Assembly (NCBI GenBank): GCA_017449215.1 | Contig: JAFSJY010000009.1 | Location: 1-45,186 of the forward strand | Reading direction: 5' to 3' | Origin: Acholeplasmatales bacterium | Lineage (GTDB): Bacteria; Bacillota_I; Bacilli_A; Acholeplasmatales; Anaeroplasmataceae | DNA length: 45,186 nt | In this document: one piece after another, positions 179 through 27,006 of the stretch | Position numbering within the stretch: position 1 is the first letter of the stretch | Layout of the letters: every line of letters begins with the position of its first letter | Notes under the pieces: model-generated | What the model saw: the letters and a program-made list of their open reading frames with translations, nothing else | Told to the model about the DNA's origin: nothing | Database searches by the model: none | Position numbers and translations under genes: made by a program

Positions 179-3100
179 ATGAAAAGCGAATTCAATGACG
201 TAGGAACTGAATTTAATAAGTCTATTAATGAAGTAAATCCAGGCTTAGAGGCTGCCAAATATTACGAAGTTGCTCCAAGTGGCGATGAGCTATTTTTAGT
301 TAAAGAAACTTCTTCCGATGAAGGAACTCAAAGTGCTTCTAAGCAAAGCGTTGAAGATTATCAAGATTTCCAAGAAAAAATGGATAACATAAATAGATTT
401 AATAATACTGCCGATGGTACTCAATCTCCAGATATGAATTCTGTGAATGCAGCAAATGAGGCTGAATTAGTCGCAGAAGCACAAGCTGGTGCGGCAACTT
501 CCGCTTCAGTTTCTGTTTCATCTACAGTAGCTTCATTAGCTGGTAGTGTTTCTGTAATCACAGTAGCCGGTGTTGTAGTAGCTATAGTAGCCGGTGGTGT
601 TATGGAAAAGGCTCCTACAATTGTTTCAGAGAATTATGAGACAGGAGCCAACTATATTAAATATGAAATTGATGTAACTGAATTAAGTGAAAATATGGAT
701 TATTATATTAAGGTTTCTAATCCTAGCTTTAGTGTTGAATACCCAATTATTGAAAGTGGTCTTCAAAAACAAATAGTTCCAGATTTAAAGCCATATAGAA
801 ATTATGAGGTATCAGTAATTAGTAAGGAACCAACACTTGGTGATATTGTATATCATACTACTACAGTATCTACATCTGTTTTACCTAAGCCGGTTGCTGT
901 ATTTGAGTTTACACCAAATTTTGATCATATTTTAGGTAAATATGATTTAGAGTATGAAACATATATTTCAGATTATTATAATAATTCAAATAATGTATAT
1001 TTACAGGTTTATGTTGGTAATAAATTAATAGTAGATGACCATGATTTGCCTGAAAATCATTTCTTTAGAGGTACTATTAAGAATATAACTAATAGTGGTG
1101 CGATAAGTGCGATTGTTTATGGTGATTATACTGACGGTAAGGATTGGTATTATGATTCAGAAATAGGTAAATATGGATATGAGCCTGATATACCAGAAGG
1201 ATTTGAGTTTAGAAATGATTATAGATCACTTTATACATTTGATGATAATTGCTTCTATAAATCTTTTGATTCTGTAAATGGTACTACATTAAATGTAAAG
1301 ACTAATTTTGAGGCTGCGGATGAAGATGATTCTTATAGAATAGATATTTTGAATAACGATGAAATAATTGATTCTATTGTATCAACAGAAAAAGAAGTAA
1401 GCTTCAAGATTCAGCCATATATTAAAAATGTTGATATTAAATTTACACCTCTTAAAAATACAGATGGTGGCTTAGTAGAATTTGAAGCATCATTAGTTAA
1501 GGGTGTAGACATTGATCCAAATATTTTTGAGAAAAAGGAATTTAGAATGTATGATGGTGGATATTATTTTGAAGCTGTTTGTACAAATACAACTTCCTTT
1601 GAAAATGAATTTGATTTAACAATTACACTTAATAATAAGGATGGTTCAAAGACTGTTGAAAATCAGAAATTCACTGAAGTGGCTAGCGTAGAAGGCAGTC
1701 AAGAAGGTGATGTTGAATCATATGATATTTTAATAACATATGGCGATTTAATTATTGAAAAGATACATATCATAAATGAAGAATGCTTTACATTAAGTAG
1801 TGATTTCGATATAGATGATGATGGTAGTGTATTAGTTCCATTTGAAGTAGTTCTTCCTGAAGGAGCTATATTTAAATCATTTACATCATATTTAAATAAC
1901 AATGAAGTAACATTCAAAGATACAACTGGTACATTAAAGTTTGATAAATTAGATACTAATACAGTATCTATATCAGGCTATTTAGAATATGAATATAATG
2001 GAATAAGCTTTGAAAGAAATATTTATATTGAAAACTTTGATTTGGGAGTTGATTTAAGAGTTTCTTATTATGCTCCTCATTTATTAAGTAGTTATCAGTA
2101 TATGGATTTAAAATTTGAAGCTTATATTAAGGATAAGCTAGTTAACTTCAATTTTGATCCAGCATTCTATAATTCTGATGATGAAGAAATGTCATTCAGT
2201 CCAAATGAAGATATTTATAGAGTAAGCTTCGATGGTAATGAGATTAAATATGATTTAAGTAGTGATGGATTTGAAATTGATTCATTAGATTTAACTAATT
2301 TCGATTCTGATGTATGTAATTCAAGTAATCCTGATTATGATATAAATTTTGAAAAATATACAATTAATAACCCTGTAAATTACTTTAAGACTATAAATGA
2401 AGATGGTACTGTAAATTATTATTTTGATACTAATTTCACTGACACAAGTACTAATAGTAGCTATGAGCATCAATATAGAATTAGATACTCATATTTAAAT
2501 AGTAATAATGAAAGAATTTATAAATATACAGATAACACTACAGCTAAGACAATTAAGCTAGAGAATATAAAGGATTTAGATTACAAATTTGAATGTCAAA
2601 TGTTCTATCATGATTTAACATATGGCTTTGATTATGGAATTAAGGTTAATGAATCTCAATATATTCCTTGTGAATTAATTGAATCAAGTTCTGTATTTAC
2701 AGCCAATTCAATTTCATTAGCTAATTTAAGAAAGGATAGAGAGTATTATACTGTAATTGATTTCGCAGTGAGCTATGGTTTATTAGATACATCTAAGGAA
2801 ATAGAAGTTCTTTATAAGAATAATAAAATCCTTATTCCTTTTAAGAATGAAACTGATGAAGGGGTTGAATCTAATAGTTCATACTATGCATATTACTATG
2901 ATAATGAAGATAGCTCATTAGGCTATAAGGTTATGGTATTTAAGAATCAAAATGATGATTCAATCGAGCACATTATGGTAGAGGCTTATGTAAAAGAAGC
3001 TGAAGATGATTTTACATATGAAGCAACTATAACAGTAAACTCAAAGTTAGATGTAATAATTGATAAATATGTTTCTGATAATGGCTCAGATGATATTATT

Positions 3101-5257
3101 AATTCTGCATCTGCTGGTGGAGAAGCAAATTACAATGTTGGCTATAAGGCAAACTACAATATTGATTCTATGTCAGTTACAACAGAATATAATGACTACT
3201 ATGGTGTTAATTATATAAATGTTAGTGGCATTGAGTTTAATTCAGAAAATGATAACGATAAATTATTGATTGAAGCCTATTCAAATGGAGTGCTTGTAGG
3301 TGAAACTACAATTGGTAATGGTGAAACTTCAGCAAGCATTGAGGTTGATCCTGCATATACAAATATTGAGATTGTAGTATCTGAATATGTAATTCAGCAT
3401 CCTCAACCATTTGGTGGATATGAAATAGAAGAGGTTTATACAACTAAGATTAGTGAGCAAGATAGACAAAATGTTTCAGTTGATCCTATCGATGTCGTAA
3501 CAAATGTTAGTGTAACAGAAACAGCTGATGCGATTCAATTTGATGTTACAGCAGTGGATGATTTCTCTGAATATAACCTAAAGGTTACTAAATATTATTA
3601 TCTTATTACAAATGGAGTTAAGGCTACCACTTTAAGTACAGATTATACAAATGGTGATGTTGGTTCTACAACCGTAAGCCTTACAAATGAAGAAGCTCAT
3701 GCTGTAAGCAAATATGTAATAGAGGTTTATAGAGGTGATAGAGTATTTGCAATATATGAAATGAATTTAGAGCCTGAAATTGGTAATTATACATATGTTG
3801 ATGGTGAAGATTATATTACTTTACCATACAACTTAAAATTACCTGAGGGCGCAACCCTTGTTTCTGGTACTATTACTGCAGGTATTGGTGACCCAGATAG
3901 TATTGATTCTGAAACTGGTACTATTACAGTAACACAGCTTGAAACTAATGTAATAGATATTATGTTTGATATTACTTATGAATTAAATGGTGTTCAGGTT
4001 CAGTATTCTTATACATATACTAAGGAATTAGAAGGAGAGCTTGATGTAGATTATACTATTTATTCATATCAAGGTAATTCATCATATGGTGACTTCTCAT
4101 GCAATCAGGATATCAAATTTGATCAAGAAACTAATAAGATTTATTATTACAAAAATGGATCTTATTATGATGACGATGGTAATGAGGCACCTGATAGTGC
4201 AGTAAGCTCTAATTATAAAAACACAATCTATGTTCTTAAAGTAGAAGGTATGAAGGTAGATATTGGATGCTTTAAGAATCTAGAATATAATAGTAACTAC
4301 ACCTTAAATGTTATTAAAGCTGGTGGAAATATAATCAATACTTCAACTGGTGAAATTAAGTATTCATATCAAATCAATAGTAATCCGCCAAATATAGAAA
4401 CATCTTATTTAGAGAATAGCTCTCAAATTCAAGGTATTTATATTACATTCTTACATACAAATAAATCTATTGAATATTATAATTACGATGTTTATGGAAT
4501 TAATTTATGTGAGCTTGAATTTAGTATTATAGCAGGTGGAAACATAGTATATTCTAAGAGCTTAGAAATAGATGAGCCTAGTAAGAATACTGTAGTTACT
4601 GAAAGTGCATTTAGTATTGATAGAGCTGCAATTAATAATACAGTTACTACAAATAGTGATGATACTATCAATATGACAATTGATACTGGCTTTGATTCAG
4701 CTGCTAATCCAAATTATGCTTATAAGGTTATTTTATATAATAGATTAGATTACTATGGCTATGATAGTGGTGAAAAGCTATATGAATCTGATTATTTAAC
4801 ATCAGATGAAGTAACAATTAATGATTTGGCAAATACAAATTATGAAGTATACATCGAAGTATATTATAGTAAAGATGGTGAATATATTAAATATAATTCA
4901 TATAAGCTTGGAAATGCTAATAGCCCATTTGCAAACGCTAATGGATGGAATTATGATTCAAGCACTACATCTTATACAAATACACTATATCTAGATACTA
5001 ACTTTATTAATCAAGATTATTTAGATGGTACAAAAACATTAGATATTAAGATTAAAGGCGTTACTGCTTCAATTGATTTGACTGATACAGAAGAGCAATT
5101 TGTATCAACAAATACTAGAGTTCAGGTTTTAAATGATAATGGTGTAATTTCAGTTGCTATAATAGGTAAAACTGATTCTAGTTATGCTAGAGGAACTGTT
5201 ACTATAAGTCAAGGTAATGCTTCAATAGGTTACGTAGACGTAACTTATACAATATAG
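179..5257 (+). CDS. Giant membrane-anchored surface protein with Fn3/Ig-like repeats
   Basis: A 1692-aa protein, not assignable to a named family. Residues 1-110 are hydrophilic and acidic, residues about 115-141 form one strongly hydrophobic Ala/Val/Gly segment, and the remaining ~1550 residues are rich in Tyr, Asn, Asp, Ser and Thr in alternating beta-strand-like patterns. Residues about 155-215 read like a fibronectin type III domain. Two internal duplications are visible: a module beginning LPEGA at about residues 552-640 and 1220-1310, and a module beginning INN.V at about 728-815 and 1482-1570. There is no N-terminal signal peptide, lipobox or LPXTG, so anchoring is probably by the internal membrane segment; which side faces out is inferred. 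Start chosen at ATG 179 with GGAGGT 8 bases upstream. It is followed 13 bases later by an MscS channel gene in the same operon. An adhesin or envelope stalk is a guess. Confidence 0.8.
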   Translation: MKSEFNDVGTEFNKSINEVNPGLEAAKYYEVAPSGDELFLVKETSSDEGTQSASKQSVEDYQDFQEKMDNINRFNNTADGTQSPDMNSVNAANEAELVAEAQAGAATSASVSVSSTVASLAGSVSVITVAGVVVAIVAGGVMEKAPTIVSENYETGANYIKYEIDVTELSENMDYYIKVSNPSFSVEYPIIESGLQKQIVPDLKPYRNYEVSVISKEPTLGDIVYHTTTVSTSVLPKPVAVFEFTPNFDHILGKYDLEYETYISDYYNNSNNVYLQVYVGNKLIVDDHDLPENHFFRGTIKNITNSGAISAIVYGDYTDGKDWYYDSEIGKYGYEPDIPEGFEFRNDYRSLYTFDDNCFYKSFDSVNGTTLNVKTNFEAADEDDSYRIDILNNDEIIDSIVSTEKEVSFKIQPYIKNVDIKFTPLKNTDGGLVEFEASLVKGVDIDPNIFEKKEFRMYDGGYYFEAVCTNTTSFENEFDLTITLNNKDGSKTVENQKFTEVASVEGSQEGDVESYDILITYGDLIIEKIHIINEECFTLSSDFDIDDDGSVLVPFEVVLPEGAIFKSFTSYLNNNEVTFKDTTGTLKFDKLDTNTVSISGYLEYEYNGISFERNIYIENFDLGVDLRVSYYAPHLLSSYQYMDLKFEAYIKDKLVNFNFDPAFYNSDDEEMSFSPNEDIYRVSFDGNEIKYDLSSDGFEIDSLDLTNFDSDVCNSSNPDYDINFEKYTINNPVNYFKTINEDGTVNYYFDTNFTDTSTNSSYEHQYRIRYSYLNSNNERIYKYTDNTTAKTIKLENIKDLDYKFECQMFYHDLTYGFDYGIKVNESQYIPCELIESSSVFTANSISLANLRKDREYYTVIDFAVSYGLLDTSKEIEVLYKNNKILIPFKNETDEGVESNSSYYAYYYDNEDSSLGYKVMVFKNQNDDSIEHIMVEAYVKEAEDDFTYEATITVNSKLDVIIDKYVSDNGSDDIINSASAGGEANYNVGYKANYNIDSMSVTTEYNDYYGVNYINVSGIEFNSENDNDKLLIEAYSNGVLVGETTIGNGETSASIEVDPAYTNIEIVVSEYVIQHPQPFGGYEIEEVYTTKISEQDRQNVSVDPIDVVTNVSVTETADAIQFDVTAVDDFSEYNLKVTKYYYLITNGVKATTLSTDYTNGDVGSTTVSLTNEEAHAVSKYVIEVYRGDRVFAIYEMNLEPEIGNYTYVDGEDYITLPYNLKLPEGATLVSGTITAGIGDPDSIDSETGTITVTQLETNVIDIMFDITYELNGVQVQYSYTYTKELEGELDVDYTIYSYQGNSSYGDFSCNQDIKFDQETNKIYYYKNGSYYDDDGNEAPDSAVSSNYKNTIYVLKVEGMKVDIGCFKNLEYNSNYTLNVIKAGGNIINTSTGEIKYSYQINSNPPNIETSYLENSSQIQGIYITFLHTNKSIEYYNYDVYGINLCELEFSIIAGGNIVYSKSLEIDEPSKNTVVTESAFSIDRAAINNTVTTNSDDTINMTIDTGFDSAANPNYAYKVILYNRLDYYGYDSGEKLYESDYLTSDEVTINDLANTNYEVYIEVYYSKDGEYIKYNSYKLGNANSPFANANGWNYDSSTTSYTNTLYLDTNFINQDYLDGTKTLDIKIKGVTASIDLTDTEEQFVSTNTRVQVLNDNGVISVAIIGKTDSSYARGTVTISQGNASIGYVDVTYTI

Positions 5258-5270
5258 GAGGAAACTTAAA

Positions 5271-6308
5271 ATGAGTAAAAAGAAAAAGGGATTTACAATT
5301 GTAGAGCTTACAATAATCGGTATTGTACTAATTACATTCTTAGTATTTATGGTTATTGAAATGGCTTCACCAGCCTCAACTGTTGGTGAATGGGTAAAGG
5401 AAAACATTTGGGACACAGAGGCAACTGGAAAAGCCTTTATGACACATTTACCAGTGTTAATTCAAAGTGTTGTTTATGTAGTTGTAATTTATGCAGTATG
5501 TAAGCTAATTAGAATGTTTTTCCAAAGAAAAATGAAAAAATCTAACAGAGCTAAAACTGTTATTACTTTAGCAGATGGTTTAGTTAAATATGGATGTGCT
5601 ATCGCTATTATCATTTTCTTATTACAAGCATTAGGTGTTAATTCAACAGCTATCTTCGCATCTGTTGGTATCTTAACATTAGTAATAGGTTTAGGCTGCC
5701 AAAGCTTAATCGCAGACGTAGTTGCTGGTATGTTTATTGTATTTGAAAATGAATATAATGTTGGTGAAATTATCACTGTAGGTGACTTTAGAGGTACAGT
5801 TACTGAAATTGGTATTCGTGCAACTAAAATTTTAGATATGGCTGGTAATATTAAGATTATTAATAACTCAGATATTTCTAATGTAATTAACATGTCTAGA
5901 GAATTATCTTTAGCAGTAGTAGATTGTGAATTCCCTTATGATGTTCCAATCGAAGTAATTGAAGGCTTATTAAAGGAGCATTTCGATTTATTCCGTGAAA
6001 AGATTCCTGCAATCATTGAAGGACCTTTCTATAAGGGTGTATCTGGATATGGTGATTCTAACGTAGCTGTAAAGATTGTTGCTAAATGTAAAGAAGAGGA
6101 TAGATATCAGGTTCAAAGAGATTTATTAAGAGAATATCGTATGGTATTTACTGAAGCTGGTATTGACTTATCATTCAATCAGGTTGTTATTTCTAATTAC
6201 AAGCCTACTGATTATAAGACTTCTAAGAAGAAGAAGGAAGAAGCTCAAAACTTCGTTGATGAGCAAAAGGAATTATCTAAGACAGTTGACTCTGCAGATG
6301 ATAAATAA
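5271..6308 (+). CDS. MscS-family mechanosensitive channel with prepilin-like N-terminus
   Basis: A 345-aa small-conductance mechanosensitive ion channel that would release solutes on osmotic downshock. The pore helix and beta-domain region is clear: an ASVGILTLVIGLGCQSLIAD segment, then FIVFENEYNVGE and GTVTEIGIRAT motifs typical of MS_channel proteins, around residues 125-190. Hydrophobic segments lie near residues 13-30, 58-80, 105-120 and 125-160. The C-terminal 30 residues are charged. The first residues, KKKKGFTIVELT, look like a type IV prepilin cleavage/methylation signal with Glu at the +5 position after Gly7, which is unexpected for a channel and may be coincidence. AGGAGG just upstream supports the start. 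It shares an operon with the surface protein and ends in a terminator shared with the convergent cyclase gene. Confidence 0.93.
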   Translation: MSKKKKGFTIVELTIIGIVLITFLVFMVIEMASPASTVGEWVKENIWDTEATGKAFMTHLPVLIQSVVYVVVIYAVCKLIRMFFQRKMKKSNRAKTVITLADGLVKYGCAIAIIIFLLQALGVNSTAIFASVGILTLVIGLGCQSLIADVVAGMFIVFENEYNVGEIITVGDFRGTVTEIGIRATKILDMAGNIKIINNSDISNVINMSRELSLAVVDCEFPYDVPIEVIEGLLKEHFDLFREKIPAIIEGPFYKGVSGYGDSNVAVKIVAKCKEEDRYQVQRDLLREYRMVFTEAGIDLSFNQVVISNYKPTDYKTSKKKKEEAQNFVDEQKELSKTVDSADDK

Positions 6309-20464: not shown

Positions 20465-20749
20465 ATGAATAATTTTTTAGAAGTCGTATGGATAAATATT
20501 TTTTATAATATTGTAAGTATATTGATTGGACTTATCGTTTTAAGCTTTGGAATAATCAAAATTATAAAGGAAAAGAAGCTATTATTCCCAATAATTTGTA
20601 TTGTTCATTCAATCCTATTTATAGCCTTTGGTATATTAGGATTCTTTGTTCCAGAGGAATATTCATTTATTCCAATTTTAGCTATTTTAGCGTTTGTAAT
20701 TACATTAATAGTATTCTTCCTAACAGTAGGAAAAAAAGAGAAGCAATAA
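20465..20749 (+). CDS. Small three-segment membrane protein, unknown function
   Basis: A 94-aa protein with three hydrophobic helices at about residues 10-28, 36-57 and 64-86, separated by a short basic loop (KIIKEKKL) and a Pro/Glu-containing loop (FFVPEEYS), and a lysine-rich end KKEKQ. No family is recognised. GAGGT lies before ATG 20465 and a TATAAT sits just upstream inside a palindrome. A terminator overlaps the stop codon, so it is monocistronic. An alternative frame over 20596-20784 is a shadow. Confidence 0.7.
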   Translation: MNNFLEVVWINIFYNIVSILIGLIVLSFGIIKIIKEKKLLFPIICIVHSILFIAFGILGFFVPEEYSFIPILAILAFVITLIVFFLTVGKKEKQ

Positions 20750-20770
20750 TGGATTTATCCATTATTTTTT
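20745..20770 (+). terminator. Terminator of the small membrane protein gene
   Basis: A 9-bp stem AATAATGGA/TCCATTATT with loop TTTA followed by TTTT. The stem includes the TAA stop. Confidence 0.83.
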
Positions 20771-20813
20771 CTTTACTATATTAATGCTTTTGTCCTATAT
20801 TTTTTAATTATTA

Positions 20814-20842
20814 TTTAAAATAATAAAATTGTATGCTATAAT
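20814..20842 (+). promoter_or_regulatory. Probable promoter of the helicase-FtsZ-like operon
   Basis: TTTAAA (20814-20819) and TATAAT (20837-20842) with 17-base spacing. A perfect inverted repeat TTATTAT-TTAAA-ATAATAA (20808-20826) overlaps the -35 and could be an operator, though it is AT-only. Confidence 0.5.
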
Positions 20843-20878: not shown

Positions 20879-23800
20879 ATGCAAATGAAACGTAAGAGAG
20901 TACCTGAAGGACTTGAAAGTAAATTAAATGCTGTAACAAACCAACTTTTAGACCTTGGTAAAAGAAACAGACTATTAAACTATCAAGACAAGGGTTTAAA
21001 AACATTAAAATTATTGAATAAAAATACTGAGGAAATATTCCGTGGAGTTAAGGGCTATAGAGATCTTAAATTTTTTGATACTGATGCTACATTAAATGAA
21101 TTTATCAATAATCCAGAAATATTAGCAGCGGATAAAAAGGGCTATGAGGATTTATTGCATTTAACATATGAACAGGTTTATGGTGTAACAAGAAAGTATT
21201 TACAAAGAAATGAAATATTATGTTATAAGGCAGGATATCAGTTAGTAAGAGCTTTGAAATCATTGTTTAAGGATATGTCATCATCAATGATTGAAAAGGG
21301 TATTAACCCATTGTATATTTCATTTGGTTTCATTCATTATACAGAAAATGATGGAGAAACATATACAGCTCCATTACTACTAATTCCAGTAGAATTATCA
21401 AATGAAGAGGGCTATTATTCTTTAAGACAATACGAGGATGATATCCTATTAAATCCGACTTTAGCATTCTATCTAGAAACTGCATATAATATCGTTTTAC
21501 CTGAATATGGTGATGAAGCTTATTCGACTTATCTAGAAAAGCTCCAAGCAGTAGTAGACCAAGAGGAAAAGGTTACTTTTGAGGATGGTGCCTCACTAGG
21601 TATTTACTCATTCTATAAGATGAATATGTATAATGACCTTTTATCTCATAAGGAAATGGTATTAGAGAATAAGAATATTAGAAGACTATTAGGTGAGCCT
21701 GATAGTATTGAAATTCTAGATGAAAATATGCCAGTATATCCAGTTGTTAACTGTGACTCATCACAGCTAGAGGCAGTACAGAATGCCGCTAATGGTAAAT
21801 CATTCTGTTTACAAGGACCTCCAGGATCTGGTAAATCACAGACAATTACTAATATGATTTCTACATTCTTAGGACAAAGAAAGAAGGTTCTTTTCGTATC
21901 TGAAAAGATAGCAGCTTTAAATGTCGTATTTGAAAACCTAAGAAGAGCTAAGCTAAGTGAATTCGCATTAGAAATTCACTCTAATAAGGCATCTAAAAAG
22001 GAATTCATTGAAAAGCTTTATACAGCTGCTACATTACCTAGATATGAGCTTAATGTTAGAACAAAGATTACTGAAAGTAGATATTTATCCTTAAAGGGTA
22101 AGCTAAATCATTATGAGCAATTATTACATCAAATGATTCCAGGACTTGAGTGTTCATTATTTGATTTATATTCAATGTATTTAGGAAATGATGTTAATCC
22201 ATTAGATGTTCATCTAGACCTAGAGGATTTTAATATTATGACATTAGATGAAATAATATTATTATTTAATGAATATACTATCTATACGGAATACATTGGT
22301 TCTGACTATAGAAAGAGTGGTTTATTTGGATTAAATCTAGAAAATATTAATAATTTAGGTGAATTAGCTACTAACTTCAGTGTGGCTATTGAGCACGTTC
22401 AAAAGCTAATTGCAGTAAGAGACCAATTAAATAGCTCATCTCTTAGAATGAAATTTGAAAATGTAATGGATATCTATAATGGTCTTTCTTATATGGAAAG
22501 AATTAATAAGACAAAGACCTATAATAAGTATTTATTCATTAAGGCATCTAGAAATAGAATTTTAAATGCAATTGATAAGTATATTGCAATTTCACCAAAT
22601 TTAAAATGTGATGAATTAGCATTATATGACGCAAATATAGTTAATGAGGATTTAGATCTTTGCTATAAGAAGATTGAAGAAAATAATAAAGGCTTATTCA
22701 AGAATGCTGAATTTAAGGAATATACAGCTAAGATTTTAAATCATAGAAAGAATAAAAAGGCTAAGCCTGAGGAAATTCTAGAGGAAATTAAAAAGATTTC
22801 AGCACATAAGCGTTATTACGCGGTAGCTAAAAACTATATTAATGATTTAAATAAATATTTAGGTAATTTTGAGGAATATGATTTAGCCCAGGTATTTAAG
22901 GATTGTCAAACATTATCAACTTTACCAGATATGGATATTAGTGAAGAAAGATTTAAAGCATTAAAGGAGGAGGCTGTTAAGATTCCTTCATATACATACT
23001 TTAAACCAGATTCAATTCATCTGATGAGTGCTGCTAAGATATTCTATAAGAAGGATATTGATTTATATACTTCAACATTAGAAAGAATATATGATAGATT
23101 TGTAGCTATTTATAAGGAATTAGATTATCTATACAATTATCAAGAATTGATGGTAATTGTTGGTAAGATGAAGAGATATAATTGTCTTGATTTCCTACAT
23201 ACATATTTAGATTATCAATTACCAATTGAAGAGATTGGAGATTGCTATAAGAAGACATTTGTTAAGCAAAAGATTGATGAGATTCATGAAACTCATGATG
23301 ATTTCAAGAATTTCGATAGAGCTAAGACAGATGATATCATTAATGAATTTAGAGATTTAGATGAAAAGATGTTCCATATCAATAGAGATTTCATTATAGC
23401 TGAAAACTCTCAAATGAGACAGGTAGATATAGTTGAAGGTTCTCAATTTAAGCTATTAGATAAGGAATATAATAAGACAAGAAGACAATTACCAATTAGA
23501 GCATTACTAGAAAAGATAATGGAATTAGCTCTAGAAATAAAGCCAGTATTCCTAATGTCTCCACTTTCAGTTTCAACATATTTAGCATCTGAATTAAATA
23601 TGTTTGACGTAGTAATATTCGATGAGGCCTCTCAGATTTTCGCATGTGATGCCTTCGGTTCTATTTATAGAGGTAAGCAATGTATCGTTATCGGAGATAC
23701 AAAGCAAATGCCACCAACATCATTCTTCCAAGCATCTGCAGAAACAATTGGTTCGCAGGTAGATGAGGAAGCAGAGGTTGAAGAAGAAAATGACCTAGAT

Positions 23801-25381
23801 TCAATTCTAGATAAGGCATCTGAACTATTTGAAACTAAGGCATTAAAGTGGCATTATAGAAGCCGTACAGAGGAATTAATTGTATTCTCTAATAATAATT
23901 TCTATAATTCTAACCTAATTACTATTCCACAATCACGTCACCATGAAAGAGGATTTGGTATTGATTATTACTATATCCCTGAAGGTAGATATGATATGAC
24001 TAGTAGAACAAATCCACTTGAAGCACAAGCAATTTGTGATATGGTATTTGAGCATTTGGATAATTCAACTCAGTCAGTTGGTGTAGTTGCGTTCTCTAAC
24101 GTTCAGGCTGAATTAATTCAATCATTAATTGATAAGAGATTAAGAAAGCAGCCTAAATATGAAAAATTCTTTGACCCAGAGCTTGAAGAGCCAGTATTCG
24201 TTAAAAACCTAGAATCAGTTCAGGGTGATGAGCGTGATAGAATTATATTCTCTATTTGTTATGGTTATAATAATGAAGGTAAATTCTATCAAAGATTTGG
24301 TCCGTTAAATGCATCTGGTGGTGAAAGACGTCTAAACGTTGCCATAACTAGAGCGAAGATTAACGTATCAGTAGTTGCCTCTATTCATTATAATGATATA
24401 AAGGATAATCCTAATAGTGAGGGTGTAACTAGATTTAAGGAATACTTAAAGTTTGCTGAATACGTAGTTGATGATAAGAATTACGAAGAGGATAATTCAG
24501 GTACAGTTAAGGCAATTACTGAAAAGATTGAAGAACTTGGCTATACAGTAGTTCCTAATTATGGTTATTCTGCATTTAAGGTAGATATGGCTGTTAAGAA
24601 GGATGAGAATTTCGTATTAGCTATTATGATTGATGGTAAGAGTAAATATTCTACTAATCTATCAGATAACTATCGTCTTGAAAGAATGCTACTAGAGCGT
24701 CAGGGATGGAAATATTATAAGCTATTTACAACATCATGGATTGAAGATCCTGAAAAGGAATTAGAGCGTATTAAGGCTTGCCTAGATGGTACTTTAGTTG
24801 AAGGTGTTGAATATGAATCACATCCAGAAGAGGTATCATATTTAAGAAGAGAAGGAAATGCTGATGTAATCGATATGAGCTACGCAGTATATGAATTCTT
24901 AGATAGATCAAAGGGTAGAAAGCTATTCCAGCATGGTGGTATGCCAAATCTTGTTAAGGAAATAATTAGAGTTGAAACTCCAATCCATAAGGAATTCCTA
25001 TATAAGAGAGTCGCATCTATCATTGATGTTGAAAAGATTACTCAGGACTTTAAGGATAGTGTAACTGAGGCTTTACCAGAGCGTTTATTAAAAATTGGAG
25101 ATTTCTATTTCAATTTCAAAGTTTCTGATATAAAATTAAGACTTGAATCAGGAAGAGATGTTGGACATATCTTCGTTGATGAATTAGCTGATGGTCTATA
25201 TAATGTTGTTATAAAGAATAATGGTATTAGTGAGGGTGGTGCCTTCAAGACTATCGTTAATATGCTTGGCTATGATAGAGTAACAGCTCAGTCTAAGCAA
25301 TATTTAGTTGAAGCCCTAGAGCATCTAATCCTAGATCATAAGGTTGTTGAAACTAATAATAATTTATATTTAGTAAAGTAA
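20879..25381 (+). CDS. DUF4011 superfamily-1 helicase with Vsr-like nuclease domain
   Basis: A 1500-aa ATP-dependent nucleic acid translocase. Order of parts: N-terminal DUF4011 domain (LLDLGKRNRLLNYQ near residue 20); Walker A GPPGSGKSQT near residue 312; a long helical insert to about residue 840; DEAS Walker B near residue 914; VIGDTKQMPPTSFF; HYRSRTEELIVFSN; ESVQGDERDRIIFS; and NVAITRAK near residue 1150, all intact. Residues about 1210-1297 match the Vsr-like MTES_1575 nuclease fold (VDMAV, then MIDG, then RLERMLLERQGWKYYKLFTTSW), but the usual catalytic Glu-x-Asp reads Met-Ile-Asp. A DUF3320-like domain (VETPIHKEFLYKRVASII) ends the protein. Such architecture occurs in genome defence and DNA repair. 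The ATG at 20879 or 20885 is the start. The next gene, FtsZ-like, begins 16 bases on. Confidence 0.92.
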   Translation: MQMKRKRVPEGLESKLNAVTNQLLDLGKRNRLLNYQDKGLKTLKLLNKNTEEIFRGVKGYRDLKFFDTDATLNEFINNPEILAADKKGYEDLLHLTYEQVYGVTRKYLQRNEILCYKAGYQLVRALKSLFKDMSSSMIEKGINPLYISFGFIHYTENDGETYTAPLLLIPVELSNEEGYYSLRQYEDDILLNPTLAFYLETAYNIVLPEYGDEAYSTYLEKLQAVVDQEEKVTFEDGASLGIYSFYKMNMYNDLLSHKEMVLENKNIRRLLGEPDSIEILDENMPVYPVVNCDSSQLEAVQNAANGKSFCLQGPPGSGKSQTITNMISTFLGQRKKVLFVSEKIAALNVVFENLRRAKLSEFALEIHSNKASKKEFIEKLYTAATLPRYELNVRTKITESRYLSLKGKLNHYEQLLHQMIPGLECSLFDLYSMYLGNDVNPLDVHLDLEDFNIMTLDEIILLFNEYTIYTEYIGSDYRKSGLFGLNLENINNLGELATNFSVAIEHVQKLIAVRDQLNSSSLRMKFENVMDIYNGLSYMERINKTKTYNKYLFIKASRNRILNAIDKYIAISPNLKCDELALYDANIVNEDLDLCYKKIEENNKGLFKNAEFKEYTAKILNHRKNKKAKPEEILEEIKKISAHKRYYAVAKNYINDLNKYLGNFEEYDLAQVFKDCQTLSTLPDMDISEERFKALKEEAVKIPSYTYFKPDSIHLMSAAKIFYKKDIDLYTSTLERIYDRFVAIYKELDYLYNYQELMVIVGKMKRYNCLDFLHTYLDYQLPIEEIGDCYKKTFVKQKIDEIHETHDDFKNFDRAKTDDIINEFRDLDEKMFHINRDFIIAENSQMRQVDIVEGSQFKLLDKEYNKTRRQLPIRALLEKIMELALEIKPVFLMSPLSVSTYLASELNMFDVVIFDEASQIFACDAFGSIYRGKQCIVIGDTKQMPPTSFFQASAETIGSQVDEEAEVEEENDLDSILDKASELFETKALKWHYRSRTEELIVFSNNNFYNSNLITIPQSRHHERGFGIDYYYIPEGRYDMTSRTNPLEAQAICDMVFEHLDNSTQSVGVVAFSNVQAELIQSLIDKRLRKQPKYEKFFDPELEEPVFVKNLESVQGDERDRIIFSICYGYNNEGKFYQRFGPLNASGGERRLNVAITRAKINVSVVASIHYNDIKDNPNSEGVTRFKEYLKFAEYVVDDKNYEEDNSGTVKAITEKIEELGYTVVPNYGYSAFKVDMAVKKDENFVLAIMIDGKSKYSTNLSDNYRLERMLLERQGWKYYKLFTTSWIEDPEKELERIKACLDGTLVEGVEYESHPEEVSYLRREGNADVIDMSYAVYEFLDRSKGRKLFQHGGMPNLVKEIIRVETPIHKEFLYKRVASIIDVEKITQDFKDSVTEALPERLLKIGDFYFNFKVSDIKLRLESGRDVGHIFVDELADGLYNVVIKNNGISEGGAFKTIVNMLGYDRVTAQSKQYLVEALEHLILDHKVVETNNNLYLVK

Positions 25382-25397
25382 GGAAGTGAAAGCCACT

Positions 25398-26390
25398 ATG
25401 GAAGACAAAATTAGAATAAAAGTTGTAGGCCTTGGTGGCTTTGGCCTTTCTACAGTTGAATTAATGAGTAAAGGTATAGTAGGAGTTGACTTCTTAGGTT
25501 TATCTAATAAGCATCCTATTATTAATGATTCAAATTTAACAGAAAAAATCCTTCTTGGTGGAGGTGTTACTACAAACCACTCACCCGAGCTAGGTAAAAA
25601 AAGAGTATTAGATTCAAAGGAAGAAATTACAAAATCATTAGAAGGATATGATGTAATTATAATAGTTACTGCATTAGGCTTTGGTACAGGTACAGGTGGT
25701 GCTCCACTAGTTGCTAGTATTGCAAAGGACTTAGGTGCCTTTACTATTGGTGTTTGTACAACACCATTTGCCTTTGAGGGTGCTAATAAGGATGCAGTTG
25801 CTAAAATGGGCTTATTCCAGCTTAAGGCAATTTGTGATTCTATATTAGTTTTCTCAAATCAAAAGCTAATAAAGGGTACCGCAAAGCCAACTGATGGAGT
25901 AGAAGAAAAGCTACTTAGTGTTAAGAATCAAATTAGATATATGGTAAGCTCATTAGTGAATATGCTTAATTATTCAAAGGGTATTTCTATGAATGCTTTT
26001 GATTCATTAAGAAGCTTATTTAGATCTAATAAGGAAATGTTCTTTGGATGTGGTGCTGTAATGGGAGAATTCCAAGCAGTATCAGCTTTAAGACATGCTA
26101 TTAAATCTGATTTATTAATTACCTCATTATCAAATGCTAATAGAATATTATTAACTATTGATTATAAGGAAGAAATATCAAAGGAAACATTAGATTTATT
26201 ATATGATGAAATCTATAATATCACTGGTGATGATGTTGATATTATATATACATCATCAATAAATCCAGAATCTATGGGTATATTATTCGTATCTGTTTTC
26301 GCAACAGGAGAAGATATTAAGGATAATAATAAGAGTATTTCTGACTTTGATAAGCTTAAGGATGCTATTAATCCTAATAATTTCTTATAA
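25398..26390 (+). CDS. Divergent FtsZ/tubulin-superfamily GTPase
   Basis: A 330-aa FtsZ-like protein. The order of FtsZ motifs is clear: VVGLGGFGLST near residue 8, SKEEITKSLEGYDVIIIVTA, the tubulin signature GFGTGTGGAP at about 94-103, and TTPFAFEGANKD. Differences from division FtsZ: the first glycine loop is GLGGFG instead of GxGGGGGN, the T7 loop reads ISMNAFDSL where FtsZ has NxDFAD, so one of two catalytic acids is Asn, and the C-terminal FtsA/ZipA-binding tail is absent. It is therefore more likely a specialised paralog than the cell-division protein, though a reduced genome might use it as FtsZ. Start ATG 25398 is chosen over GTG 25386 because AGGAAGTG spans 25381-25388. It is coupled to the helicase gene. 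Confidence 0.88.
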   Translation: MEDKIRIKVVGLGGFGLSTVELMSKGIVGVDFLGLSNKHPIINDSNLTEKILLGGGVTTNHSPELGKKRVLDSKEEITKSLEGYDVIIIVTALGFGTGTGGAPLVASIAKDLGAFTIGVCTTPFAFEGANKDAVAKMGLFQLKAICDSILVFSNQKLIKGTAKPTDGVEEKLLSVKNQIRYMVSSLVNMLNYSKGISMNAFDSLRSLFRSNKEMFFGCGAVMGEFQAVSALRHAIKSDLLITSLSNANRILLTIDYKEEISKETLDLLYDEIYNITGDDVDIIYTSSINPESMGILFVSVFATGEDIKDNNKSISDFDKLKDAINPNNFL

Positions 26391-26398
26391 AAAACAAA

Positions 26399-26426
26399 AA
26401 CCAATTTTCAATTTTGAAAATTGGTT
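26399..26426. terminator. Bidirectional terminator between FtsZ-like and TetR genes
   Basis: A 12-bp perfect stem AACCAATTTTCA/TGAAAATTGGTT with loop ATTT. It has T runs on both strands (TTTTTTTT after it on plus, TTTTTGTTTTTT on minus). Confidence 0.9.
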
Positions 26427-26433
26427 CTTTTTT

Positions 26434-27006
26434 TTACTTTGTAATTGAATTAGTTACTAGGATATATAACTGATTTGATAAATCATCTAGTGAAATTGAT
26501 TTATCTGAATTAAACCACTTATAATAAGTATTTAATACTCCAGATGCGATAAAAATAGAAGCATACTCTACACTAACACCTGCAGGTAATTTAAACTTAC
26601 TTAAGATCCTCTTAGCATATTCACTAAATAAGCTAACAAGCTTTTTAATTAATTGTGAATCGTAATTTAATTTCATTAATATTGAATAGAATTCAAAATT
26701 AGCATTAATTACCTCAGTAATCTTTTTAAAGATGTTAACTTGCTGATCTAGATTACCTTCTATATCTAGACTTTCTACAGCGTCATTAATAGTTGATACC
26801 ATTTCATTTTCAATTTCATTTAGAATTTCATAGGTGCCATTGTAATAATTGTAAACTGTCTTTCTATCAACATCAGCTAAGTCAGCGATATTCTTAATTG
26901 TAATATCGTTAATATCCTTTGTTGCTAGAATTGACATGAAGGCTTTCTTAATTGCCTTCTTAGATTTAATAATTCTTCGATCTTGTTTTTTAATATTTTC
27001 TTCCAT
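26434..27006 (-). CDS. TetR-family transcriptional regulator
   Basis: A 190-aa dimeric DNA-binding repressor by family. The N-terminal helix-turn-helix is clear at about residues 33-62: INDITIKNIADLADVDRKT followed by VYNYYNGTYEIL. The remaining residues are helical and divergent, as usual for the ligand-binding domain. The second ATG (27006) is chosen because AGAGGT sits 7 bases upstream; the first ATG (27012) is only one base away from it. It is divergent from the dehydrogenase operon, and a perfect 9-bp inverted repeat lies between their promoters, so it probably represses that operon and itself. The inducer is unknown. Confidence 0.93.
   Translation of the reverse strand: MEENIKKQDRRIIKSKKAIKKAFMSILATKDINDITIKNIADLADVDRKTVYNYYNGTYEILNEIENEMVSTINDAVESLDIEGNLDQQVNIFKKITEVINANFEFYSILMKLNYDSQLIKKLVSLFSEYAKRILSKFKLPAGVSVEYASIFIASGVLNTYYKWFNSDKSISLDDLSNQLYILVTNSITK

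Follow-up and report, generated by a model that had tools for sequence, protein, structure and literature searches.

The window, a contig of 45,186 nucleotides (C86) from a 2.05 Mb genome (G000) that is 98.7% complete, encodes a DUF4011-containing SF1 helicase directly followed by a divergent paralogue of FtsZ, and this gene pair is real and conserved but narrow in its distribution. The interpretation that we favour, with somewhat less than even confidence, is that an SF1 helicase of the ProA/Hhe family acquired a hydrolysis-dead, FtsZ-derived partner with which it forms a two-gene functional unit. The observations suggest that a defence or DNA-surveillance enzyme gained a division protein as its partner. 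In the open-licence literature, no description was found of a DUF4011 helicase with an FtsZ-derived partner, and searches for DUF4011 with Vsr and phage, for an operon of an FtsZ paralogue and a helicase, for Gao_Hhe/HheA/PDC-S37 and for ProA gave nothing usable.

The features of the locus are listed in Table 1. An earlier note on this DNA described a two-gene unit, and this is confirmed: the 1500-aa helicase and the FtsZ-like protein are encoded 16 bases apart and are flanked on both sides by strong terminator hairpins (20749-20772 and 26399-26426), the downstream terminator being bidirectional and common to a convergent gene for a TetR-like protein. The ATG of the FtsZ-like gene is preceded by AAGGAAGTG; alternatively, the gene could start with the GTG at 25386. 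Membership of the 94-aa membrane protein in the operon is doubtful given that it is cut off by the upstream terminator. Elsewhere in the window, an ORF of 1692 aa (179-5257, plus strand) has no Pfam or PADLOC match and is followed after 13 bp by a mechanosensitive-channel gene (5271-6308).

Table 1. Features of the helicase-FtsZ-like locus (positions in the window)
Feature	Coordinates	Strand	Remarks
Small predicted membrane protein, 94 aa	20465..20749	+	Conserved 5' of the helicase, whether or not a species has the FtsZ-like gene
Terminator-like hairpin AATGGAT-TTAT-CCATT and T run	20749..20772	+	-10.8 kcal/mol, z -5.6; upstream operon boundary
Promoter-like site TTTAAA-17-TATAAT, TG before the -10	20814..20842	+	Consensus match only
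Helicase: DUF4011 / SF1 (split AAA_11-AAA_12) / MTES_1575 PD-(D/E)XK-like / DUF3320	20879..25381	+	1500 aa
FtsZ-like paralogue, 330 aa	25398..26390	+	ATG start; FtsZ fold
Intrinsic terminator	26399..26434	+	Hairpin 26399-26426 (-13.5 kcal/mol, z -4.1), 12-bp stem, then T8

A Pfam search with the helicase identifies DUF4011, AAA_11/AAA_12 and MTES_1575 above the respective cut-offs and DUF3320 as a weak match under the cut-off; the order of DUF4011, SF1 helicase and MTES_1575 is that of the DUF4011-helicase-Vsr superfamily (PDC-S37 / Hhe / ProA). The best curated match is the NCBIfam profile for ProA (NF058533), with 937 bits against an equivalog cut-off of 1500; the alignment spans aa 6-1467 of the helicase, and the helicase differs from ProA in that about 350 N-terminal ProA residues are missing and an FtsZ-like partner is present. 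The profile for Hhe (NF042953), a single-gene system with the same domain order, yields 613 bits against a cut-off of 2000, and here, in contrast, the nuclease glutamate is replaced and there is a second gene. Among the PADLOC models, PDC-S37 matches the whole helicase chain with 1001 bits and Hhe reaches 459 bits. Given that the NCBIfam cut-offs for ProA and Hhe are not reached, the helicase is, as judged by profile scores, a relative of the ProA/Hhe/PDC-S37 antiphage proteins rather than a certified member. The connection with the antiphage system Hhe mentioned in the earlier note holds for the family, which is labelled as anti-phage by NCBIfam (Hhe, ProA) and PADLOC (Hhe, PDC-S37), but not at the equivalog level.

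The Walker A motif (GPPGSGKS, around aa 313-320) and the Walker B motif (FDEAS) are intact in all complete copies from the family. In contrast, the nuclease of the helicase-Vsr architecture is present as an MTES_1575 domain with the catalytic glutamate replaced: the acidic residue of the IECDG motif, kept as IECDG or VECDG in relatives from Halomontanus, Vibrio and Aristaeella, is a methionine (IMIDG in the window helicase, IMIDG and variants across the aligned family clade), and this clade has also lost the YH and RDRDR signatures. The nuclease domain is probably dead and probably was so already before the FtsZ-like gene appeared. The same genome encodes a second, longer DUF4011 helicase (C73, L069 5799-11675, minus strand; about 1950 aa), which is closest to ProA (1045 bits, under the cut-off) and in which the nuclease glutamate is also replaced (VIIDN).

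The FtsZ-like protein matches the Pfam profiles Tubulin (E 1.3e-22) and FtsZ_C (E 3.7e-9), both above the cut-off, whereas its score with the profile for canonical bacterial FtsZ, TIGR00065, is 167 bits, short of the cut-off of 295, compared to 409 bits for the canonical FtsZ of the same genome. An AlphaFold model, the input of which included FtsZ sequences from viral contigs, both tail-less and normal, adopts the FtsZ fold with a pLDDT of 83; all matches in the PDB are FtsZ proteins, and the TM score with S. aureus FtsZ is 0.90 by target length. The protein shares with canonical FtsZ the fold, the T1, T4 and T5 loops and the FtsZ_C domain but has lost T2, T3, T7 and the tail. Specifically (S. 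aureus FtsZ numbering), T1 retains G20 and G21 with N25 replaced by S; T4 reads GFGTGTG instead of GGGTGTG; in T5, E139 is kept and R143 is K; and N166 is kept in the window protein but is K in the relative from G016. In T2, N44, D46 and Q48 are replaced by S, K and P, respectively; in T3, GLGAGA became GVTTNH with four residues deleted; and the guanine contact D187 is replaced by K. In T7, D210 and D213 are replaced (D213 by S, with the loop alignment uncertain by one residue), and the synergy motif NxDxxD is absent in all three species that possess the protein (SMNAFDSLRS, TINSFDSFKS and GLTGLDGLKA). The FtsZ-like protein ends with DAINPNNFL directly after the globular domain and lacks the C-terminal linker and tail peptide, whereas the canonical FtsZ of this genome has the linker and terminates with NMPSWLHK. 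In FtsZ proteins, the tail peptide is the binding place of SepF or FtsA.

The T2 and T3 gamma-phosphate loops are lost or rewritten. In light of established FtsZ biochemistry, the motif and tail losses predict that the protein does not hydrolyse GTP and is not anchored to the membrane, and make its guanine specificity doubtful; polymerisation is also predicted to be lost. Thus, the tubulin-like fold recognised in the earlier note is borne out but the designation as a GTPase is unsupported, NxDxxD being absent. Many FtsZ proteins of about 310 aa encoded in viral contigs of IMG/VR (L093, L094, L095, L105, L116 and others) are tail-less and end after the globular domain.

A separate canonical ftsZ gene (435 aa) is located on contig C81, where it adjoins ruvAB, the gene for a CNNM/CBS protein, efp and mutL and is not part of a mur/mra cluster; the FtsZ-like protein is therefore a paralogue and not the sole FtsZ of the organism. 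Given that no penicillin-binding transpeptidase domain (PF00905) was detected in the G000 genome and that SepF is present along with one canonical ftsZ, the organism probably represents a wall-less lineage that divides by means of FtsZ and SepF. In the phylogenetic tree, the FtsZ-like proteins form a clade of their own (support 100/100) on a very long stem, which is placed beside the canonical FtsZ of the same genus (six rows on one side of the branch, support 77/93). This nested position is favoured; an origin outside the FtsZs of the family is not rejected by the AU test (p 0.076), the branch being long.

Divergent paralogues of the FtsZ superfamily with dedicated genomic partners have been described previously, namely FtsZl1 and FtsZl2 (Makarova and Koonin 2010, PMC2875224), TubZ and extra bacterial FtsZ copies. 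FtsZl1 contains a coiled coil and pairs with vWA, GTPase and OmpA genes (PMC2875224); the article nowhere uses the word helicase. The FtsZ-like protein, with its 330 aa, FtsZ_C domain and other neighbours, lacks the combination of a coiled coil, a helical C-terminal domain and a vWA partner that defines FtsZl1.

The pair is present in three probably wall-less species of one genus (C86 in G000; G003:C6, with 88% identity of the FtsZ-like protein; and G016:C120, with 55%). Among the 55 genomes of the family and the 160 genomes of the order, these three are the only ones with FtsZ-like matches well above canonical FtsZ, and in each case the helicase gene is located directly 5'. Adjacency in relatives, by which the earlier note proposed to judge the pair, is thus kept in two other species, though within one genus, and is not a one-genome peculiarity. 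The spacing is below about 20 bp in all three species, suggestive of one polycistronic transcript, and a terminator follows the FtsZ-like gene in G000 and G016. Among 395 genomes sampled from the class, for which pairing was assessed by the number of matches in each genome, two tubulin-family genes were found in five genomes only, the other four without a strong helicase match. When GTDB genomes were scanned with narrow peptide patterns, only the two known relatives were recovered, and in viral contigs, phages and plasmids, the search for relatives of the FtsZ-like protein yielded nothing but ordinary FtsZ (about 30%). Second tubulin-family proteins of about 500-600 aa, weakly similar to the FtsZ-like protein, are encoded by two genomes from another family of the class (G160:C6, L082/L091; G172:C36, L085/L090), and in another family of the class, a truncated FtsZ-like gene of 212 aa adjoins a normal ftsZ (G193:C22, L084/L088 4484-5119).

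The helicase is far more widespread. Matches, some of them distant, were detected in all 31 good genomes of the family, and most of the orthologues have no FtsZ partner. The copies vary in number and locus: G021 has a tandem duplication, and G001 and G004 possess second copies. The two tandem genes (G021:C10, L063 3878-12720) are 11 bp apart and their products show about 39% and 49% identity to the window's helicase. One fragment with 97% helicase identity at the end of a 3-kb contig (G005:C51), a possible contamination, was left out. In the helicase tree, G000 with G003, G016 and G014 are grouped (support 100/99), with their internal order unresolved; G014 lacks the FtsZ-like gene and has its own terminator 3' of the helicase. 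The block consisting of ilvE, the small membrane protein and the helicase is conserved in G000, G003, G016 and G012 and partly in G014, so that the FtsZ-like gene was either added behind this block in one sub-lineage or lost in G014. In G016, the other genes of the window within 14-34 kb are dispersed, lying on six or more different contigs; ilvE, the membrane protein gene, the helicase and the FtsZ-like gene alone stay together. This is a true change of gene order because contig C120 runs on for 14 kb with other genes. The strongest argument for a functional link is that the pair remains intact in such scrambled surroundings.

In the family contigs examined, the helicases are mostly surrounded by housekeeping genes, in agreement with the earlier description of the window. 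The search for defence genes that it called for revealed no defence island around the pair or the helicases; PADLOC matches at E <= 1e-10 were few and weak (10 models, each in 1-3 of the 114 neighbour proteins), with no recognisable system.

Comparison of G000 and G003 yields dN/dS values of 0.126 for the FtsZ-like gene, 0.109 for the helicase and 0.056 for canonical ftsZ; thus, the FtsZ-like gene evolves under purifying selection. The constraint is asymmetric, with the N-terminal nucleotide face the most conserved and the T7 face drifting. Between G000 and G016, 15 of the 17 residues of the rewritten T3 loop are kept (16 of 17 in canonical FtsZ), compared to only 5 of the 21 residues of the T7 loop (20 of 21 in canonical FtsZ), and between G000 and G003, there is not a single amino-acid change at positions 45-66 and 89-132, the changes being densest around 155-220. 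This asymmetry, together with the purifying selection, implies that the FtsZ-like protein is functional and that its working surface would be the N-terminal nucleotide face. A positively selected or decoy surface was also considered and rejected given that the variable stretch (dN/dS about 0.37, cluster p 0.057) appears to be relaxed rather than diversifying. Helicase residues or indels do not clearly track the presence of the FtsZ-like gene (25 sites against 17 in a control split).

The two-gene unit that we favour would consist of an SF1 helicase of the ProA/Hhe family, whose ATPase motifs work but whose nuclease domain is probably inactive, together with an FtsZ derivative that lacks the tail, is hydrolysis-dead and is expressed from the same transcript. 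The combination of a seemingly dead nuclease and a dead GTPase fold with a live helicase motor suggests a signalling or regulatory device rather than a pair of enzymes. The task of the helicase would be the surveillance of nucleic acid that is foreign or stalled, and the FtsZ-like protein would serve it as a dedicated partner subunit rather than as a cytomotive filament. The mechanism that we prefer is that of a "one-ended FtsZ", the conserved N-terminal face of which would dock on a partner. The partner could be the helicase, with the FtsZ-like protein acting as a nucleotide-gated regulatory subunit, or else the T7 face of the host FtsZ, in which case the one-ended FtsZ would cap filaments and arrest division when the helicase is engaged, so that the pair perhaps links nucleic-acid surveillance to division. 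Provided that the pair is a functional unit, we give the regulatory subunit about an even chance, the division cap a smaller but substantial one, and a decoy or sensor for phage FtsZ inhibitors a low one; the T2 and T3 changes count against the cap inasmuch as they would also alter the face that docks on host FtsZ. A further step, which we regard as conceivable but doubtful, is that an antiphage-type helicase took on this pseudo-FtsZ as a dedicated subunit and that the pair represents the first two-gene immune module in which a hydrolysis-dead FtsZ-derived protein either gates the helicase or relays the sensing of nucleic acid to the division apparatus.

Several facts are at odds with a functional unit: the helicase is near-universal in the family and most of its orthologues work without the FtsZ-like protein, G014, which by the helicase tree is as close as G016, lacks it, and the helicase itself bears no clear mark of the partner's presence. 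The FtsZ-like gene could be a duplicate of ftsZ retained by position only, using the promoter of the helicase and serving a division-related role of its own as an accessory FtsZ. This unlikely but serious alternative is compatible with the placement near the canonical FtsZ of the genus, the synteny of the ilvE block in species without the FtsZ-like gene, the restriction to three species (probably one gain) and the occurrence of extra bacterial ftsZ copies outside dcw (PMC9871819). It is harder to reconcile with the preservation of the pair in G016, where the downstream and outer gene order is lost, and with the uniformly short spacing; furthermore, because the tail peptide is missing, the protein would not be anchorable like a division FtsZ. 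The housekeeping neighbours and few PADLOC matches, which also speak against an immune role, could instead indicate a host DNA-maintenance unit, in which the helicase deals with stalled forks, R-loops or segregation and the FtsZ-like protein couples this activity to the site where a wall-less cell divides. The near-universality of the helicase relatives, the lack of a detected transpeptidase domain alongside SepF, and the finding that a DUF4011 gene in P. aeruginosa is core, being present in every isolate, though flanking a defence hotspot (PMC10250203), all fit this scheme, but the nearest curated families are anti-phage and the copies vary in number and locus, so that we consider it rather improbable.

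SulA, MciZ and the phage protein Gp0.4 all bind the T7 face of FtsZ. This bears on the possibility that the FtsZ-like protein is a decoy that traps phage FtsZ-binding proteins and thereby activates the helicase, which its derivation from FtsZ and its location beside an antiphage-type helicase could suggest: the T7 face is precisely what it does not keep, and the variable stretch, being relaxed, does not point to diversifying selection either. A precedent exists in that CapRel-Ebc senses Gp0.4 bound to host FtsZ and is activated by the FtsZ-Gp0.4 complex (PMC13423816), but that system involves the host's own FtsZ and a toxin-antitoxin, as opposed to an encoded degenerate paralogue and a helicase, and a decoy appears very unlikely. 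The idea, going back to the earlier note, that a filament-forming GTPase positions or segregates the helicase fares no better: the tubulin/FtsZ fold is complete, but with NxDxxD absent in all three species, D46, Q48 and the GAGA loop of T3 replaced and D187 lost, such an activity is very unlikely, and no partners of the TubZ kind (TubR, a centromere) were apparent.

The FtsZ-like protein indicates that selection can maintain an FtsZ that has lost its tail and, as predicted, hydrolysis. If the pair is functional as favoured here, a cell-division protein would have given up division to become the partner of an immunity-type helicase, which would complement the recent report of host FtsZ in phage sensing and would provide a direct handle on the regulation of ProA/Hhe-type helicases.
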